DNA from: Planctomycetaceae bacterium
GTDB lineage: Bacteria > Planctomycetota > Planctomycetia > Planctomycetales > Planctomycetaceae
Length of the DNA: 24,419 nt
Assembly: GCA_003445035.1 (NCBI GenBank)
Contig: DLVV01000090.1
Span: 503-24,921, forward strand
Reading direction: 5' to 3'
The translations under genes were made by a program, and so were the position numbers. A model generated the notes under the pieces. The model ran no database searches, was not told where the DNA came from, and saw only the letters and a program-made list of their open reading frames with translations. How positions within the stretch are numbered: the stretch's first letter is position 1; every line of letters begins with the position of its first letter. Shown piece by piece: positions 15,233-23,565 of the stretch.

Positions 15233-17905
15233 TCAGTCGACCGTTGGCAAAGGCGAGACGACCTTCGTTGCGTCGTCCGGATCGCAGGCTGTGAAGACGA
15301 AGCCGTCGGTTTGCCCGTCGACGACCAGTCGTGATCCCTCGGGGAATTCTCCGGCCAGCAGCCTGTTGGCCAGGCCGTTCTGGATGCGTTGTTGGATGAC
15401 CCGCTTCAGTGGCCGTGCCCCGTAGAGCCGGTCGTAGCCTTCGGCGGTGAGGAGTTCCCGGGCGGCGTCGGTGACCTCCAGTTGGTGTCCCTGCTCGGCG
15501 AGTTGCTCGGCCAGTCGGTTGAGTTGCAGGTCGACGATGCGACGGATGTTGTCACGATCGAGTGGCGAAAAGACAATCGTTTCATCGATTCGGTTGAGGA
15601 ACTCGGGGAGAAACTCGCTGCGAAGCACTTCGGCCAATGTCTCGTCGATCGCCTCGGCTTCGTCCTTCTCGACATGTTCCAGGATGGCCCGACTGCCCAG
15701 GTTGCTGGTCATCACGATCAGCGAGTTGGCGAAGTCGACGGTGCGACCCTGGCCATCGGTCAGGCGGCCGTCATCCAGCACCTGCAGCAGGACATTGAAG
15801 ATATCCCGATGAGCCTTCTCGATTTCGTCGAGCAGGATCACGCAGTAGGGCCGCCGCCGGACTGTTTCGGTCAGTCGCCCACCTGCTTCGTAGCCGACGT
15901 ACCCGGGTGGCGCTCCGATCAGCCGCGCGACCGAGTGCGGTTCCATGAACTCGCTCATGTCGATCCGCACGATCGCCCGTTCGTCGTCAAACAGGAATTC
16001 GGCCAGGGCCTTGCACAGTTCGGTCTTGCCGACCCCGGTGGGACCCAGGAACAAGAACGAGCCGAGCGGCCGACCGGGTTCGCCCAGTCCGGATCGTGAG
16101 CGTCGGACGGCGTTGGCGACCGCTTCGACCGCGCCGTCCTGGCCGACGACGCGGCGGTGCATCACCGACTCCATCTCGAGCAGCTTGTCGCGTTCGGCAC
16201 GGAGCATCCTCGACACGGGGATTCCCGTCCAGGTGCTGACCACTCTCGCGATGTCCTCTCCGGTGACCTTCTCTCGCAGCATCCGCTCGCCGTCGTCGTG
16301 ATCGGCCGCGGCGATACGGACCTCGAGCTGCTCGAGATCCGCTTCGGTCGCCCTGAGTTGTGCTTCCGCCTCGTGAGCGGTGATGAAGTCCTCGTTGAGG
16401 TTGGTTTGGCGGGCACGGGCAAAGGCACGCTCGTAGGCGGCCTGGAGTCCCTCGATCGATTCTTTCAACGGCTGCAGTTGCCCCAGGACCTGTTTCTCGG
16501 CTTCCCATTGGGCTTTGAGTCGAGTGACATTCTCCTCGCTGTCGGCGATCTGACGCTTGAGATCTTTCAGTCGTTCCCGGCTCTCGGGGCTTCCCTCGTG
16601 GGCCTCGTCGGCCAGGGCGGTGACTTCGATCTGCATTCGTGTCAGTTGGCGTGTGGCTTCATCGATCTCGGCCGGCATCGAGTCGATTTCCATCCGCAGC
16701 CGGCTGGCCGACTCGTCGACCAGGTCGATCGCCTTGTCGGGGAGAAAACGGTCACCGATGTATCGGTCCGAGAGCGAGGCGGCGGCGGTCAGGGCATCGT
16801 CGGTGATCCGGACGCCGTGGTGGGTTTCGTAACGGTCCTTGAGCCCTCGGAGAATCGAGATGGTGTCGTCGACGGAGGGTTCCTCGACCAGGACCGGCTG
16901 GAAGCGGCGCTCGAGCGCCGCGTCCTTTTCGATATGCTGGCGGTATTCGTCAATCGTGGTGGCTCCGACACAGTGGAGTTCACCTCGGGCGAGCATCGGC
17001 TTGAGTAGGTTGGAGGCATCGAGAGATCCCTCGGACGCACCGGCTCCGACGACAGTGTGCAATTCGTCGATGAACAGGATCACTCGACCGTCGGAGGCCT
17101 GGACCTCCTTGAGAACCGCCTTGAGTCGGTCCTCGAACTCGCCCCGGTACTTCGCCCCGGCGATCATCGAGCCCAGGTCCAGTGCCACGACACTCTTGTC
17201 GGCCAGTTGGGTCGGAACATCACCGCGGACAATTCGCTGGGCGAGCCCCTCGACGATCGCGGTCTTGCCGACACCCGGCTCGCCGATCAGTACCGGGTTG
17301 TTCTTGCGTCGCCGCGAGAGCACCTGGATGACACGTCGGATTTCCTGGTCGCGGCCAATGACGGGGTCGAGTCGACCCTCGTGGGCCAGTTCCACCAGGT
17401 CCTTGCCGTATTGTCCCAGCGCATCGTACTTGTCTTCGGGGGCATCGTCGGTGACTTGCTGGTTGCCACGGATCAACTCGAGCGCCTCCAGCACGTCGCT
17501 CTCTTCAACGGCACACAGGTGCAGGAGCCGTCCGGCCGTGTCGTCACAGGTGGACAGGGCCAGCAGCAGGTGCTCGGTCGACAGATAACTGTCGTCCATT
17601 TCCTCGGCTCGCCGACGGGCATCGGTGAACAGTCCGGGCAATCCGGGCGAGGCGGACAGGTCGGCGCCGGTGCCCGAGACCTGGGGCAGGCGGTCCAGTT
17701 CACCATCGACCAGGCTCCGGAGTCGAGCCGTATCGACGCCGATTCGGTCGAACAGAGAGACGACAACGCCGCTGCGTTCTTCGAGCAATGCGGCCAGGAG
17801 ATGGAGCGGGGACAGGAACTGGTGATGGCGGTCCTGGGCGGACTGCTGTGCCCGCATCACGGCTTCACGGGCCTTGATGGTCAATCGATCCAGTGGCAGG
17901 CTCAT
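15233..17905 (-). CDS. clpB: ATP-dependent disaggregase ClpB
   Basis: Hexameric Hsp100 AAA+ unfoldase of 890 residues that works with DnaK to resolve protein aggregates in the cytoplasm. Domains in order: Clp N-domain repeats (about 1-145); AAA-1 with Walker A GEPGVGKT (208-215), pore loop KYRGEFE (252-258) and Walker B RVILFIDE (274-281); the long coiled-coil middle domain (about 405-535, [16 protein letters not shown] onward) that identifies ClpB rather than ClpA or ClpC; and AAA-2 with GPTGVGKT (621-628), [11 protein letters not shown] and GYVGYEAGG. There is no IGL/IGF loop for ClpP. GAGGAGGAG before the ATG is a strong ribosome site. It is 15 bases downstream of dnaK on the same strand, so the two form one operon. 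The length is slightly above the E. coli protein (857). Confidence 0.98.
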
Positions 17906-17920: not shown

Positions 17921-19849
17921 CTAGTCGTCCTCTTTCTTCTCGAACTCCGCATCGATCACGTCATCCTCCGCAACGTCGCCGGCGGATCCGTCAGGGGAGC
18001 CCGCCTCGGGTGAGGCACCCGCAGCAGCCGAGTCATCGGACTGCTCGTACATGTGTTTGGAGAGTGCGTGCGTGGCCTGTTCCAGTTCGCCGACGGCGGT
18101 GTTGATGGCGTCGGAGTCTTCACCAGAAGACGCCTCGTTGACCTTGGTGACGGCCGCATCGATCGCTTCTTTCGAACTGTCATCGAGCGTCTCGGCGTGC
18201 TCGGTCATCAATTTCTCGGTTTCGTAGACCAGCATTGAGGCTTTGTTGCGGGCCTCGGCCAGGTCTCGTTTCTTCTTGTCCTCCTCGGCGTGTTCTTCGG
18301 CGGCCTGTCGGGCCTGCTCGATCTCGCCGTCGGAGAGGCCACTGGATTCTTCGATTCGGACGGACTGTTCCTTGTTTGTGGCCTTGTCCTTGGCGGTGAC
18401 GTTGAGGATGCCGTTGACATCGATGTCGAAGGTGACCTCGACCTGTGGGACGTTTCGGGGTGCTGGTGGGATGCCGTCGAGATTGAACTGGCCGAGTTGC
18501 CGGTTGTCGTGGGCCATCTGGCGTTCGCCCTGGAAGACCTGGACGGTGACGGCTGTCTGGTTGTCGGCCGCCGTCGAAAAGATCTCGCTTCGTGAAGTCG
18601 GAATCGTCGTGTTTCGTTCGATCAGGGGGGTCATGATGCCACCTTCAGTCTCGATTCCCAGCGACAGTGGCGTCACGTCCAGCAGGACCACGTCGGTGAC
18701 ATCCCCGGCGATGATCCCACCCTGGATTGCTGCTCCCAGGGCCACCACCTCGTCGGGATTCACGCCGCGGTGAGGCTCCCGGTTGAACAGTTCCTTGACG
18801 AAATCCTGCACCTTGGGGATACGGGTGGAGCCGCCGACCAGGACAACCTCTTCGATGTCCGACGGTTTGAGCTTCGCGTCGGAAAGCGCGTCGAGAATTG
18901 GTTTGCGGCACCGTTCGACCAGCCCGTCGATCAGGCGTTCAAAGTCGGCACGGGTGATCGAGAGCTGAAGATGCTTCGCCTCCTGGTTGGCATCGGCGAT
19001 GATGAACGGCAGGTTGATGTCGGTCGTCTGGGCCGTCGAAAGTTCCTGCTTGGCCTTCTCGGAGGCCTCGCGGAGACGCTGCAATGCCATTGCGTCTTCA
19101 CGGAGATCAATGCCCTGCTCCGACTGGAAGGTGTCGGCGATGTGGTTGATCAGAACTTCGTCAAAATCGTCACCACCGAGGTGCGTGTCCCCGTTGGTAC
19201 TGAGCACTTCGACCGACTCCGCGTCCACCTCCAGTATCGAAACGTCGAAGGTTCCCCCGCCGAGATCGAAAACGGCGATCTTCTGGTCCTGCTTCTTGTC
19301 CATCCCGTAGGCCAGTGATGCCGCTGTGGGCTCGTTGATGATTCGCTCGACCTCAAGTCCGGCGATCTGTCCGGCGTCCTTGGTTGCCTGGCGTTGAGCA
19401 TCGTTGAAGTACGCCGGCACGGTGACCACAGCCCGGTTCACCTTGTGACCCAGGTAGCTCTCGGCAGCTTCTTTCAGCTTCCGCAACACCAGCGCAGAGA
19501 TCTGCGGGGGCTTGTACGTCTCGCCAGCCGCCTCGACCTGCACGTAATCTTCGGATCCTCCAACCACCGAGTACGGGACGATCTTTTCCTCTGAGGAAAC
19601 CTCGCTGTGACGACGTCCCATGAACCGCTTGATGGAATAGACGGTGTTCTTCGGATTGGTGACCGCCTGTCGCTTGGCCTGCTCGCCCACCAATGTCTCG
19701 CCCTGATCGGTGAACGCGACCACGCTGGGGGTCAGGCGATTGCCTTCCTGGTTGGCCAACACCTTGGGCTCGCCTCCTTCGAGCACCGACACCACCGAGT
19801 TGGTGGTTCCGAGGTCGATTCCAATCACCTTTTCGTTTTCCAGGGCCAT
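17921..19849 (-). CDS. dnaK: Chaperone protein DnaK (Hsp70)
   Basis: Hsp70 chaperone of 642 residues. The nucleotide-binding domain has GIDLGTTNS (10-18), [13 protein letters not shown] (141-153), [12 protein letters not shown] (171-182), [11 protein letters not shown] (194-204) and [11 protein letters not shown] (335-345). The interdomain linker is [12 protein letters not shown] (387-398). Next come the beta-sandwich substrate domain and helical lid, then an acidic tail ending [14 protein letters not shown], the usual bacterial end. The ATG has GAGGAG seven bases upstream. No grpE, dnaJ or hrcA is adjacent, so the nucleotide exchange factor and J-protein must be elsewhere. It is the first gene of the dnaK-clpB operon. 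A sigma-54 type promoter at 19913-19928 and paired inverted repeats at 20030-20087 lie upstream. Confidence 0.99.
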
Positions 19850-19912
19850 CGCTCTCGTCTCCTCGCGCCGCGGACTTTTCCACTCTCAAGTTGCCTCTTA
19901 CCCCAGACAAAT

Positions 19913-19928
19913 TGCAAACAGTGTGCCA
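19913..19928 (-). promoter_or_regulatory. Sigma-54 (RpoN) promoter of dnaK-clpB
   Basis: On the minus strand the sequence is TGGCACACTGTTTGCA, an exact match to the conserved core TGGCAC-N5-TTGCA, with GG and GC of the -24 and -12 boxes at the required spacing. The inferred start of transcription is near 19902, giving a leader of about 53 bases that contains the GAGGAG site of dnaK. It is the only perfect match I noticed in the window. Sigma-54 promoters need an ATP-driven enhancer-binding protein, and candidate binding sites lie upstream. Confidence 0.72.
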
Positions 19929-20029
19929 AGACGTAGCGGGATATGACGGGTTCGTCGTAAACCACTTATATATAGCGAGTTGCGAAGTTGTTTATGGTTA
20001 ATGATTTCCGGCAGCTGCTGAAAACAAAC

Positions 20030-20042
20030 TGCCAAAGTGGCA
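20030..20042. promoter_or_regulatory. Upstream inverted repeat, copy 1
   Basis: TGCCA-AAG-TGGCA, a perfect 5-bp inverted repeat with a 3-base centre, identical to the copy at 20075. Its centre is about 134 bases upstream of the inferred dnaK transcription start, a typical enhancer position for sigma-54 activators. The flanking bases extend the half-sites so that the reverse complement reads ATGCCA-N3-TGGCAG, matching the other copy. Confidence 0.6.
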
Positions 20043-20074
20043 TTCTTCCCGGCACTCAACACGGACCTGCCTAA

Positions 20075-20087
20075 TGCCAAAGTGGCA
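20075..20087. promoter_or_regulatory. Upstream inverted repeat, copy 2
   Basis: A second exact copy of TGCCA-AAG-TGGCA, 45 bp from the first (about four helical turns, so on nearly the same DNA face). Its centre is about 179 bases upstream of the inferred dnaK start and 28 bases before the pheA -35 box. A bound protein could therefore also affect pheA. Confidence 0.6.
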
Positions 20088-20143: not shown

Positions 20144-20425
20144 ACGCCGAAACTACTGTTCCAGCTTGGTTTTGCGTCCAATTCCGTGAGGAGGAAAGGC
20201 CCCAGCACTGTGGTTCTGGCTACCGATTGATGCCGGAGCGGTGTGTCGGGTACCGTGTTGATTGGGGGCAAAAGCCTGTCGATCGAGGGCTGGTAAGAGA
20301 TTTCGGGCCCACGATGTCTGGATCTGCTGTTTCGGCGGCGGAAAACGAATGAAGCGTCGTTGATATGTGGTGGTGTCGGTGAACTCGACTCAGGACTGCG
20401 GTTGCCGGAAGCCGGAGCTGAACTG

Positions 20426-21568
20426 ATGGCCAAGAAGAAGTCGACGAACATCAAGCCGAGGGAGAAATCGGCGACCAAGTCGCGTTCCCGTCGGTCATCG
20501 AAGAGCCTGGGGTCATTGCAGTCGAAGCTCAAGAAACTCGATCGCGAATTGGTCAAGCGACTGCACGAGCGGGCGAAATTGACGACAGAATATCTGTCAT
20601 TGCTGCCGGACCCGCAACGCGCGTTGTACGATCCGGTGGCCGACGATGTCTTGTGGAATCAGTTGGAGAAGCAATCGGGTGCCCTGCCCTTTGCGGCTCT
20701 TCGTGGAATCTATCGTGAGTTGCTGAGTGCATCTCGCCGGGCGATTAAGGCCTCTCGGGTGGCCTATCTTGGTCCGCAATTCAGCTACACGCACCTGGCG
20801 GCGATCGAACGATTTGGCAAGTGGTCCGACCTGATTCCAGTGAACACGATCGCAGCGGTGTTCGAGGAGGTGAACCGGGGTCATGCCGAATACGGTATCG
20901 TGCCGATCGAAAACAGCACCGACGGTCGGATTGTCGATACGCTCGACATGTTCACGCGGATGCCGTTGAGAATCTGTGGAGAAGTCCAGATCGCGGTCAA
21001 TCACAACCTGCTGGCCCGCTGTGTTCGAAGTGAGATCGCCGAGATCTACAGCAAGCCACAAGCATTGTCACAGTGCCGGGATTGGTTGAGCCGCAACATG
21101 CCGCAATCGCGATTGATCGAGGTGACCAGCACATCGACCGCGGCACAGTTGGCTCGCGAGAAGCCAGGGGCGGCGGCGGTGGCCAGCCGGCAGGCGGGCA
21201 TCGAATACGACCTTCCGGTGGTGGCGGCCAGCATCCAGGACAACGAAGAGAACGTGACCCGTTTTGCGGTGATCGGCGATGACGTCCTGGCCTCGACCGG
21301 CTCTGATCGGACCGCCATCCTGTTGCAGGTCCCTCACCGGCCTGGATCTCTGGCGGATGCGATTGGCGTTTTCAAGAAGAACAAACTGAATCTGACGTGG
21401 ATCGAGTCGTTCCCGTTGCGGGGTCCAGAGAGCGGTTACCTGTTCTTTCTGGACTTCGAAGGCCATTCCAGTGACACGAGAACCAAACGGGCTCTCGGGG
21501 ACCTGGGCCAGCAGGCCATCCGGCTGGAAATTCTCGGCTCCTATCCTCGCAGCGAACCACTCGGCTGA
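20426..21568 (+). CDS. pheA: Prephenate dehydratase with degenerate chorismate-mutase domain and ACT domain
   Basis: Cytoplasmic enzyme of phenylalanine synthesis that turns prephenate into phenylpyruvate. Its 380 residues comprise a basic N-terminal tail (1-28), an AroQ-type chorismate-mutase-like helical domain (about 30-108), the dehydratase domain from [15 protein letters not shown] (112-126) to the catalytic TRF (278-280), and an ACT regulatory domain (about 297-375) with RPGSLA (305-310) and ESFP (327-330) in place of the usual ESRP. Compared with E. coli PheA, the mutase part keeps Arg49 and Asp69 but has Gln32, Leu60, Ala72 and Asp73 where Arg11, Lys39, Arg51 and Glu52 are expected, so mutase activity is doubtful. 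Feedback inhibition by phenylalanine is likely from the ACT domain. The ATG is preceded by CCGGAG. aroF follows after 86 bases. Confidence 0.93.
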
Positions 21569-21654
21569 GGCCCGCGAGTTTCAGCCACTCAATGCCCCAG
21601 CCCGGGGAAACGGTTTTTGGACCGGACCGGGCGCTTCGGACTGAAGGATCGACC

Positions 21655-22695
21655 GTGATCATTGTTCTCAAACCTGACTGCACCGATGAACAGATCGAGC
21701 ACATCGAGGAGCAGATCGTCGCCCTGGGACTGAAACCTGAACTGAGTCGCGGTGTGCAGCGGACGCTGGTCGGGGTGATCGGCGAGGAGGATGTGTTGAG
21801 AAACGCTCCGCTGGGTGCGTTTCCCGGTGTCGAGAAGGTGATGCCGATTCTCAAGCCGTACAAGCGGGCCAGTCGTGATTTCCAGCCTGAGGACTCGGTG
21901 GTCGATGTTGGCCGCGGGGTTCGTGTCGGTGGCGGATCGCTGGGGATGGTCGCTGGTCCTTGCGCAATCGAAAGCCGAGAGGTGTTGATGGAGATCGGCG
22001 AATCGGTCCGGCAGGCCGGGGCCAATATTCTGCGGGGCGGAGCGTTCAAGCCACGGACCAGCCCCTACAGTTTCCAGGGGATGGGCGAGGAGGGGTTGAA
22101 GATCCTGCAGGACGTTGGTGGCGAACTGGGGATGCCGGTGGTCACCGAGGTGATGGACCCGCGGCAGGTGGAACTGGTTGACCGTTACGCGGACGTGTTT
22201 CAGATCGGCGCACGAAACATGCAAAACTTCAACCTGCTCAGTGAAGTCGGGCAGACGACTCGTCCGGTGATGCTCAAGCGGGGCATGAGCGCCACCGTCG
22301 GCGACCTGTTGATGTCGGCAGAATACATCCTGGCGCAAGGCAACAAACAAGTGATCCTGTGTGAGCGAGGGATCCGCAGCTTCGAAGACTCAACCCGTAA
22401 CGTGCTCGACCTGGCCATGGTGCCCAACGTGAAGCAGACCTGTCACCTGCCGATCATCGTCGATCCTTCGCACGCCACGGGGCGACCCGAATTGATCCCG
22501 GCCATGGCTCGGGCGGCGGTGGCCAGCGGAGCCGACGGAGTCCACATCGAAGTGCACAACTGTCCCGAACAGGCTCTCAGCGACGGGCCACAGGCTCTTC
22601 TGCCGGACCAGTATGCGGAGGTGATGGGCGGGTTGAGGCAGCTGGCCGAGTTGTTCGAGAAGGTGATCCCGGAGCCGGGCGTGGAGGCCGAATGA
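21655..22695 (+). CDS. aroF: DAHP synthase, type I-beta (3-deoxy-7-phosphoheptulonate synthase)
   Basis: First enzyme of the shikimate pathway: phosphoenolpyruvate plus erythrose 4-phosphate give DAHP. It has 346 residues. Residues 1-70 form the ferredoxin-like regulatory domain seen in the Thermotoga-type enzyme ([20 protein letters not shown]), and the catalytic barrel follows. Metal ligands are Cys103 (GPC), His273 (PSHATGR), Glu299 and Asp310, each one residue off the Thermotoga positions I recall; [11 protein letters not shown] (132-142) is the substrate motif. The start is GTG at 21655, with AAGGA six to seven bases upstream and the family N-terminus MIIVLKP. An in-frame ATG at 21592 lacks a ribosome site and adds an atypical 21 residues. 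The regulatory domain suggests aromatic-amino-acid feedback. No mutase domain is fused. It lies between pheA and tpiA on one strand. Confidence 0.95.
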
Positions 22696-22769
22696 GCCAT
22701 GTGGCTCGTGTCGGCGACCGGCGTGGTGCCGGAAGCGTGATGGGCAAATCGTGGCACTGTTGGAATCGA

Positions 22770-22789
22770 CGGCCCGGGACCGCGGGCCG
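22770..22789 (+). terminator. GC-rich hairpin just before the tpiA ribosome site
   Basis: CGGCCCG-GGACCG-CGGGCCG forms a perfect 7-bp stem with a 6-base loop in the 108-base gap between aroF and tpiA. No T-run follows, and GGAGCAGGA of the tpiA ribosome site comes directly after. It may mark an mRNA processing or partial termination point, or tune tpiA translation. Confidence 0.3.
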
Positions 22790-22803
22790 GGGAGCAGGAT
22801 GAG

Positions 22804-23565
22804 ATGAGACGGATCCTGGTTGCGGGCAACTGGAAGATGAACACCGGCAGGGCGCAGGCCCTGGAATTGGCCAGCGGGTTGGTCGAGCAATGCGGTGAGC
22901 CGGGTGCTGTTGATGTGATGATTGCTCCGCCGTTCGTTTGGCTCGAGGCGGTTGCTACGGTGGTCGGCGGATCGGCTGTGCAGTTGGCGGCCCAGAACGC
23001 CTGGTGCGAGTCCCCGGGGGCTTTCACCGGAGAAGTGGCCCTGGAAATGGTCGCCGAGGCGGGTTGTGGCACTGTGATTCTCGGCCACAGTGAACGGAGG
23101 CAACTCTTTGGTGATACCGACGGACTGGTCGGTCGCAAGGTGGCCGCGGCGCGATCGGCCGGCCTGGGGGTGATTCTCTGCGTCGGCGAAACCCGTGAGC
23201 AACGGGAGGCGGATGAGACCGACGCGGTGCTCACGAGACAACTGCTGGCCGGTCTCGAGGCGATTGACGGCGAGATGGTCGCGGGGCTGGTTGTGGCCTA
23301 CGAGCCGGTCTGGGCGATCGGGACCGGACTGGTGGCCACCACCGAGCAGGCCGAATCGGCCCACGCTCACCTTCGCAACGAACTTGCGCTTCGCTACAAT
23401 TCTGATGTGGCCGACGCCACGAGGATCCTCTACGGGGGCAGCGTCAACCCGGACAACGCCGCTGACCTGATGGGGCGACCCAACGTCGACGGGGCGCTGG
23501 TCGGGGGAGCCAGCCTGTCAGTTGAGTCGTTTGTCGCCATCATCAACGCCGCCACTGGCGTTTGA
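22804..23565 (+). CDS. tpiA: Triosephosphate isomerase
   Basis: Glycolytic enzyme that interconverts dihydroxyacetone phosphate and glyceraldehyde 3-phosphate in the cytoplasm. Its 253 residues are the usual length. All catalytic residues are present: Lys11 (NWKMN), His95 (GHSERR) and Glu167 (AYEPVWAIGTG), the last starting the flexible loop 6. The phosphate-binding GGSV and GGAS motifs follow near the C-terminus. The ATG has AGGA close upstream (GGAGCAGGATGAG), and an overlapping two-codon frame precedes it. secG starts 60 bases downstream. The tpiA-secG order is found in many bacteria and supports both calls. Confidence 0.98.
   Translation: MRRILVAGNWKMNTGRAQALELASGLVEQCGEPGAVDVMIAPPFVWLEAVATVVGGSAVQLAAQNAWCESPGAFTGEVALEMVAEAGCGTVILGHSERRQLFGDTDGLVGRKVAAARSAGLGVILCVGETREQREADETDAVLTRQLLAGLEAIDGEMVAGLVVAYEPVWAIGTGLVATTEQAESAHAHLRNELALRYNSDVADATRILYGGSVNPDNAADLMGRPNVDGALVGGASLSVESFVAIINAATGV

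Follow-up and report, generated by a model that had tools for sequence, protein, structure and literature searches.

The main chaperone genes of well-studied bacteria are controlled by sigma-32, HrcA or HspR. The window analysed here (the whole stretch of DNA, 24,419 nucleotides, positions 503 to 24,921 of contig DLVV01000090.1, assembly GCA_003445035.1, from a Planctomycetaceae bacterium) carries a dnaK-clpB operon preceded by a sigma-54-type -24/-12 element and two inverted repeats, and this arrangement was compared with the closest described systems. Sigma-54 promoters require an activator; the enhancers of NtrC and NorR likewise consist of inverted repeats, in pairs or in tandem, that lie upstream of a -24/-12 promoter, although their targets differ. 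The groESL3 genes of Bradyrhizobium japonicum, one of several groESL copies there, are under NifA control, and the Chlamydiae are Planctomycetes-Verrucomicrobia-Chlamydiae (PVC) relatives of the planctomycetes. In Myxococcus xanthus, the NtrC-like response regulator and kinase pair HsfB-HsfA directly controls the heat-shock gene lonD; however, its kinase is a hybrid, and it serves one heat-shock gene plus metabolite genes in another phylum (PMC9109919). In Chlamydia trachomatis, hrcA and grpE have a sigma-54 promoter, and AtoS of the AtoS-AtoC pair was suggested as a possible temperature sensor; hrcA-grpE-dnaK nevertheless combines tandem sigma-66 and sigma-54 promoters with CIRCE (controlling inverted repeat of chaperone expression) and HrcA, whereas our region is without CIRCE (PMC8762339). 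The B. japonicum groESL3 chaperonin genes are also transcribed from an RpoN promoter (PMC4842269), but they are tied to nitrogen fixation and are not a main chaperone regulon. All three cases are thus precedents in which sigma-54 or an NtrC-like regulator controls single heat-shock genes.

For planctomycetes, sigma-54 at chaperone genes is already predicted in print. For Planctomycetota and Bacteroidota, a PLoS One study of 2025 reported predicted sigma-54 promoters enriched at the COGs of GroEL, IbpA, GroES, GrpE, DnaJ and DnaK; within the planctomycetes these were focused in Planctomycetia, Phycisphaerae having fewer. Clp ATPases (COG0542) were enriched as well, and the study describes grpE (two species) and groES (one) of Bacteroidota as sigma-54-dependent (PMC12316311). 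That work, which cites Studholme and Dixon (2004) on the enhancer-binding proteins of Pirellula strain 1, describes -24/-12 enrichment at the COG level; its main text does not contain the terms 'UAS', 'upstream activat' or 'bEBP', and the portions consulted give no enhancer, bend site or activator for the chaperone genes. An earlier note on this DNA, made from the letters alone, had proposed sigma-54 control of dnaK-clpB and called it unusual; the proposal is supported, while the word 'unusual' is weakened by the published Planctomycetia enrichment. In the literature searched, which takes in few subscription papers, we found neither the repeats nor an activator of planctomycete chaperone genes described. 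We propose that a sigma-54 promoter and a paired upstream enhancer drive dnaK-clpB as one target of a chaperone regulon shared across many Planctomycetota, with a response regulator, here named RR162, as the likely activator; as a whole, this reading is probable.

The elements upstream of dnaK were read in the own assembly (G000; 5.96 Mb, 467 contigs; the window lies on contig C266). Going upstream from dnaK, the order is the GAGGAG motif, the sigma-54 site, TAAGTGGTTTA, the two inverted repeats and then a divergent chorismate mutase/prephenate dehydratase gene (Table 1). The site TGGCACACTGTTTGCA is the sole exact TGGCAC-N5-TTGCW in the window, where three sites with at most one mismatch were found against a chance mean of 0.64, and 63 bases separate it from the dnaK ATG (19849). 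With the C of the -12 GC placed at -12, transcription would start near 19902. The repeat TGCCAAAGTGGCA occurs in two exact copies 45 bp apart, and the assembly holds no other exact copy. The promoter core, the paired repeats and the dnaK-clpB order claimed by the earlier note were thus all correct in coordinates and distances. Its statement that neither CIRCE nor HAIR (HspR-associated inverted repeat) was found also held within 600 bp upstream of dnaK, where no CIRCE-like match appeared at up to five mismatches, the hrcA gene not being searched for, and no HAIR-like match at up to three. A crude scan found no sigma-70-like site before dnaK, no scan being aimed at RpoH promoters. The rpoN gene, whose absence from the genome would have counted against the proposal, is present in a single copy (G000:C450) and was found in 56 of 58 genomes, both misses being less than 90% complete.

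Single elements by themselves are not decisive. The exact TGGCAC-N5-TTGCA core was found five times genome-wide against two for the reversed control, the 13-mer repeat at up to one mismatch five times against 27, and two one-mismatch repeats also arose in 21 of 100 window shuffles. Chance matches in a single genome would explain such counts, since each element is common enough; this explanation is nevertheless refuted because the elements combine and the combination is conserved. We scored 54 dnaK-type upstream regions from 53 genomes (the own genome and 52 relatives, G046 counting twice), drawn from 59 genomes after G004, G007, G012, G014, G016 and G019, for which no full close match was listed, had been left out. 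At up to one mismatch per element and a start-to-start distance of 70-170 bp from repeat to promoter, the repeat (TGYCA-N3-TGRCA) and the -24/-12 element preceded 44 of the 54 genes: 26 of 31 regions from the own family, and 18 of 23 from six further families. In 50 rounds of simulated first-order sequences, the corresponding means were 0.02 and 0.0. Within the own family the combination was missed in G031, G029, G024, G003 and G009; outside the family it was missed in G056, G038, G043, G047 and the second copy of G046. Degraded repeats were visible by eye in several of these ten. The commonest repeat spacing was 45 bp (22 pairs). When the own sequence was aligned with three close relatives, to which it is 46-68% identical in this region, the two repeats and the -24/-12 element stood out as conserved blocks. 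Among named records (80 DnaK loci minus L051, L059, L084 and L091, which have almost no upstream sequence), the combination was present in 21 of 24 planctomycete-titled loci, including Rhodopirellula sp. NAT69, against 1 of 52 others. The alignment of related dnaK upstream regions that the earlier note had suggested therefore bears out conservation of both repeats and promoter.

These distances also bear on a second explanation, in which an unknown repressor uses the repeats as operators and the sigma-54-like site is either secondary or constitutively active. Heat-shock genes are often repressor-controlled (HrcA, HspR) and the repeats are good inverted repeats; yet they are found 70-170 bp before the promoter, do not overlap it and occur together with the -24/-12 element, and sigma-54 promoters require an activator. 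We consider a repressor improbable.

The targets were then defined by three pattern searches, none of which was given dnaK information. In the first, repeat pairs at 45-bp spacing with at most two mismatches were sought in 120 genomes of the family; 73 genomes matched, with control matches in five. At least 30 loci resulted, and the 30 listed comprised 23 before dnaK, five before clpB, one before hsp20 and one that by eye lies inside an unrelated gene (L166); L188 and L180 were assigned to clpB, although for L180, where the contig ends, the match is short (39%). In the second search, one exact repeat plus the promoter gave 89 sites in 72 of the 297 class genomes, with no control match as tabulated. 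Genes were called as the longest sense open reading frame (ORF) starting within 700 bases of the promoter, which is not always the first gene; 76 of these ORFs start within 200 bases. All 89 sites were read, as 43 dnaK, 24 groEL, 15 hsp20, three secA, three other genes and one contig end (L263), so 82 of 89 precede dnaK, groEL or hsp20. Pfam matches supported the calls (Cpn60 in 24 of 24, HSP20 in 15 of 15 and in L175, SecA in 3 of 3). The three other sites precede a glycosyltransferase gene (L233), an esterase gene (L247) and an ORF without Pfam match (L260). The repeat and sigma-54 site before secA was seen in three genomes of a single genus (g34; L313, L314, L315).

In the third search, the repeat and promoter pattern was sought in 294 phylum genomes, class members included, again with no control match as tabulated. 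It returned 22 sites outside the class; 18 were read, G437:C685, G393, G569 and G519 being left out of the gene reading, and gave seven dnaK, seven groEL, one clpB and three without an assigned gene (L323, L332, L338). The absence of control matches in both the 297 class and the 294 phylum genomes, like the near absence of the combination in simulated dnaK upstream regions, speaks against chance. In the own genome, the pattern marks two sites, before dnaK-clpB and before groEL (G000:C407). G030 carries one repeat pair before dnaK (C13) and another before clpB (C14) on separate contigs, which is predicted for a regulatory element but not for a local repeat. The genome-wide search for repeats beside other chaperone genes, which the earlier note had recommended, was therefore positive for groEL, hsp20 and clpB.

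The same searches contradict a third explanation, that the repeats have nothing to do with dnaK and are terminators or RNA hairpins tied to the chorismate mutase/prephenate dehydratase gene that diverges from it. One copy does score as terminator-like on the minus strand, but the hairpin stem has only five pairs, the 45-bp pair is kept while its flanks have diverged, and the unit also stands before groEL, hsp20 and separate clpB genes; we regard this explanation as very improbable. The promoter motif, repeats, conservation, target genes and rpoN are read directly in the DNA, and the presence of rpoN, the conserved elements and the chaperone-linked sites together support activation of the disaggregase operon through sigma-54 by an enhancer-binding protein, as the earlier note had put forward; we hold sigma-54 activation to be very likely. 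A chaperone regulon of dnaK, clpB, groEL and hsp20, common to many Planctomycetota, would be part of the best explanation. The finding is broader than the earlier note had claimed, namely that in much of the phylum the main chaperone genes are predicted to be under a sigma-54 enhancer switch.

As to the activator, we read eight proteins of activator type from the own genome, of which one is degenerate. RR162 (own copy G000:C222) is an NtrC-like response regulator with a receiver, an AAA+ domain and a Fis-type helix-turn-helix (HTH) bearing GIGERTLYRK; its orthologue in G011 matches Pfam PF00072, PF00158 (Sigma54_activat) and PF02954. Orthologues were found in 106 of 108 class genomes (exceptions G185 and G186); they score about 502 bits or higher, whereas no other match exceeds 417. 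Outside the class, activators were read in part in 11 pattern-bearing genomes, in ten of which (not G393) a chaperone site was read; the numbers read among all matches were 5/7 in G401, 12/18 in G479, 7/12 in G403, 6/11 in G420, 5/12 in G422, 4/12 in G437, 2/12 in G378, 3/22 in G537, 5/11 in G393, 2/11 in G500 and 3/58 in G359. An RR162 orthologue with the GIGERTLYRK HTH was present in the first eight of these genomes (402-495 bits against at most 369 for others) and was not seen among the activators partly read in G393, G500 and G359. In the five genomes read most fully (G401, G479, G403, G420 and G422), no other type was found in every one. In 13 aligned copies, the phospho-acceptor aspartate of the TD motif is invariant, and the loop reads GAFTGA, GAYTGA, GSFTGA or GAFTDA.

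A kinase gene lies directly upstream of RR162 in 10 of 13 loci, the query locus counted; none was detected beside RR162 in the stretches examined of G378, G420 (about 360 bases) and G422. Pfam identified HisKA and HATPase domains in the kinases of G401, G011 and G045, and HATPase only in the partial own copy. The G401 kinase starts with a hydrophobic stretch, none being evident by eye in G011, G002 and G045, and no sensor domain had a Pfam match in the parts scanned. In G002 and G011 (L194, L201), the candidate kinase-regulator pair is flanked on one side by a polynucleotide phosphorylase gene, identified by Pfam in G011, and on the other by a DUF1549/DUF1553 gene, identified by Pfam in G002. 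RR162 is favoured because elimination across genomes left it. It is most likely the activator of the chaperone enhancers, phosphorylated by the adjoining kinase, and for the regulator itself the confidence is fairly good; by the same phyletic elimination, RR162 would be the protein that binds TGYCA-N3-TGRCA.

The remaining activator types are only disfavoured, since most activator sets were read in part. G045 has the repeats in front of both dnaK and groEL, and the LONG type (about 1050 aa) was absent from the matches listed for this genome (8 of 15). The FHA-GAF type occurs in G045 and was not among the five read in G401 or the 12 in G479; the same holds for the L161-type response regulator, which occurs in G045, G403 and G422. 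NorR is a GAF-domain protein with the box GTCA-N3-TGAC. This box fits inside TGTCA-N3-TGACA, a lead only. The GAF type of the own genome, present in G045, was absent from the matches listed for G011 (7 of 11), a genome that does carry the repeats. An L159-type activator was seen in G042.

A different activator could work the same switch: a short, sensorless enhancer-binding protein that a partner, perhaps DnaK, would keep inactive as long as there is no stress. PspF is controlled by PspA, and the sensorless architecture suits control by a partner protein; the HTH, GINRNTLHKK, is almost unchanged among the copies read. However, this HTH was not seen in any of the activators read in G401 (0/5), G479 (0/12), G403 (0/7) or G420 (0/6), where a few HTHs were unclear, although it is present in G422. 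The G479 protein L388 scores marginally best to the short type (276 against 273 bits), yet has a different HTH; the gap to paralogues is small (at least 346 bits against at most 323), and the G011 copy has GAFTSA instead of GAFTGA. We regard the short protein as an unlikely but not negligible candidate. Its gene lies 17-50 kb from dnaK in g57, G041 and G011; as a general linkage this was rejected, the two being hundreds of kb or more apart in complete genomes, among them G003, G006, G009, G020 and G035.

Several points weigh against RR162 and the shared regulon. RR162 was named by elimination from incomplete activator readings, and the search for it outside the class covered repeat-bearing genomes only. 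The short protein has matches in all 108 class genomes (at least 53% identity, two partial). The f3 genomes G038, G043, G047 and G056 have a degraded or lost dnaK repeat and keep both candidate activators. The strict pattern matches only 72 of the 297 class genomes. An exact TGCCAGTCTGGCA (TGCCA-N3-TGGCA) lies at L163:4525-4537 (G000:C330), at the start of a PfkB-type kinase gene; no sigma-54 site at up to one mismatch was found in that stretch, and a degenerate activator gene follows the PfkB-type gene. The earlier note had further suggested looking for repeats next to sigma-54 activator genes; among 31 loci found by script, with L157, L160, L163, L196, L199, L204 and others outside its coverage, neither a clear copy nor a clear repeat-promoter unit was present, so autoregulation gives no confirmation of the activator link. 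G045 has a one-mismatch repeat 660 bases before its short activator, and G039 a one-mismatch sigma-54 site 633 bases before its own, neither forming a unit. Finally, Rhodopirellula baltica also has rpoH (PMC2754498), so sigma-32 may coexist and exclusive sigma-54 control is less likely.

The expression data for R. baltica are compatible with the proposed switch. On arrays, dnaK, clpB, groEL and hsp20 rise after heat, and no change was seen in rpoH, rpoE or rpoN (PMC2754498). For rpoN this would be expected if control acts on how active sigma-54 is and not on its amount. Protein-folding stress is the probable signal. In the mechanism we envisage, stress, perhaps unfolded protein, would raise the activity of the kinase; phosphorylated RR162 would assemble on the two TGYCA-N3-TGRCA repeats; a protein like integration host factor (IHF) would bend the DNA between repeats and promoter; and the AAA+ ring of the activator would contact sigma-54 RNA polymerase at -24/-12 and open the promoter by ATP hydrolysis, so that DnaK-ClpB, GroEL and Hsp20 would rise together.

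For the bending step, we examined 100 repeat-promoter intervals (97 from chaperone and three from secA sites, close relatives not thinned). YAAGTNNTT was found on either strand in 36 intervals against 3.45 (sd 1.8) expected, and the more general YAANNNNTTR, which equals the core of the IHF consensus WATCAANNNNTTR, in 53 against 12.8. Judged by eye, the distances of the matches from the -24 element downstream of them group at about 27, 40-44, 50-55 and 61-63 bases. The own site matches YAAGTNNTT; as its last letters are TTT, it lacks the closing R of YAANNNNTTR. Enhancer, bend site and sigma-54 promoter is the textbook order, and IHF-type bending is a lead towards which these counts incline us.

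If the reading is true, a phylum with enhancer-dependent sigma-54 for its chaperones would represent a further major solution to chaperone control, and the question raised by the R. baltica arrays, of chaperones rising without a change in rpoH, rpoE or rpoN (PMC2754498), would be addressed. From this work come an enhancer motif that is precisely defined, a list of targets and one kinase-regulator pair open to direct testing. A bolder version is only tentative: since early in the phylum, a dedicated two-component system with sigma-54 paired enhancers might have replaced sigma-32, CIRCE and HAIR at the main proteostasis regulon, its small kinase, without a recognisable sensor domain, sensing maybe the occupancy of the chaperones.

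Table 1. Features of the dnaK-clpB region and the short candidate activator (positions are those of the window unless a contig or locus is named)
Feature	Position	Strand	Description
dnaK (Hsp70)	17921..19849	minus	642 aa; Pfam HSP70, E 1.8e-253
clpB disaggregase	15233..17905	minus	890 aa; Pfam Clp_N, AAA_2, ClpB_D2-small
GAGGAG	19859..19864	minus	probable dnaK ribosome-binding site, by direct reading
Sigma-54 -24/-12 promoter TGGCACACTGTTTGCA	19913..19928	minus	exact match to TGGCAC-N5-TTGCW; kept in relatives
IHF-like core TAAGTGGTTTA	19958..19968	minus	between enhancer and promoter
Proximal enhancer repeat TGCCA-AAG-TGGCA	20030..20042		exact copy; centre about -134
Distal enhancer repeat TGCCA-AAG-TGGCA	20075..20087		exact copy; centre about -179; kept in alignment with G001, G002 and G011
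Sensorless short enhancer-binding protein	own copy G000:C466 (L157); also L204:3145-4260		about 370 aa

In the operon, dnaK and clpB follow each other on the same strand with a 15-base gap. The nearest DnaK among the matches listed for named records was that of Planctomycetaceae bacterium RS395 (PBOJ01000032.1, 98%). Divergent from dnaK, the genes for chorismate mutase/prephenate dehydratase, DAHP synthase and triosephosphate isomerase stand in a row at 20360-23565.

Three further observations concern activator genes. In G378 and G420 (L385, L386), a response-regulator activator with a PilR-like HTH lies about 6.5 kb from dnaK; it was also considered as the chaperone activator but was seen in family f51 only. 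The 5.7-Mb genome G359 has 58 Sigma54_activat matches, and many of these fall within open frames some 900 or 1800 codons long. In the own genome, G000:C446 (L156:75-3209) encodes a 1044-aa activator with an N-terminus of about 720 residues without Pfam match; its gene is near a type II/IV secretion ATPase gene, and relatives of the protein occur in many class members.

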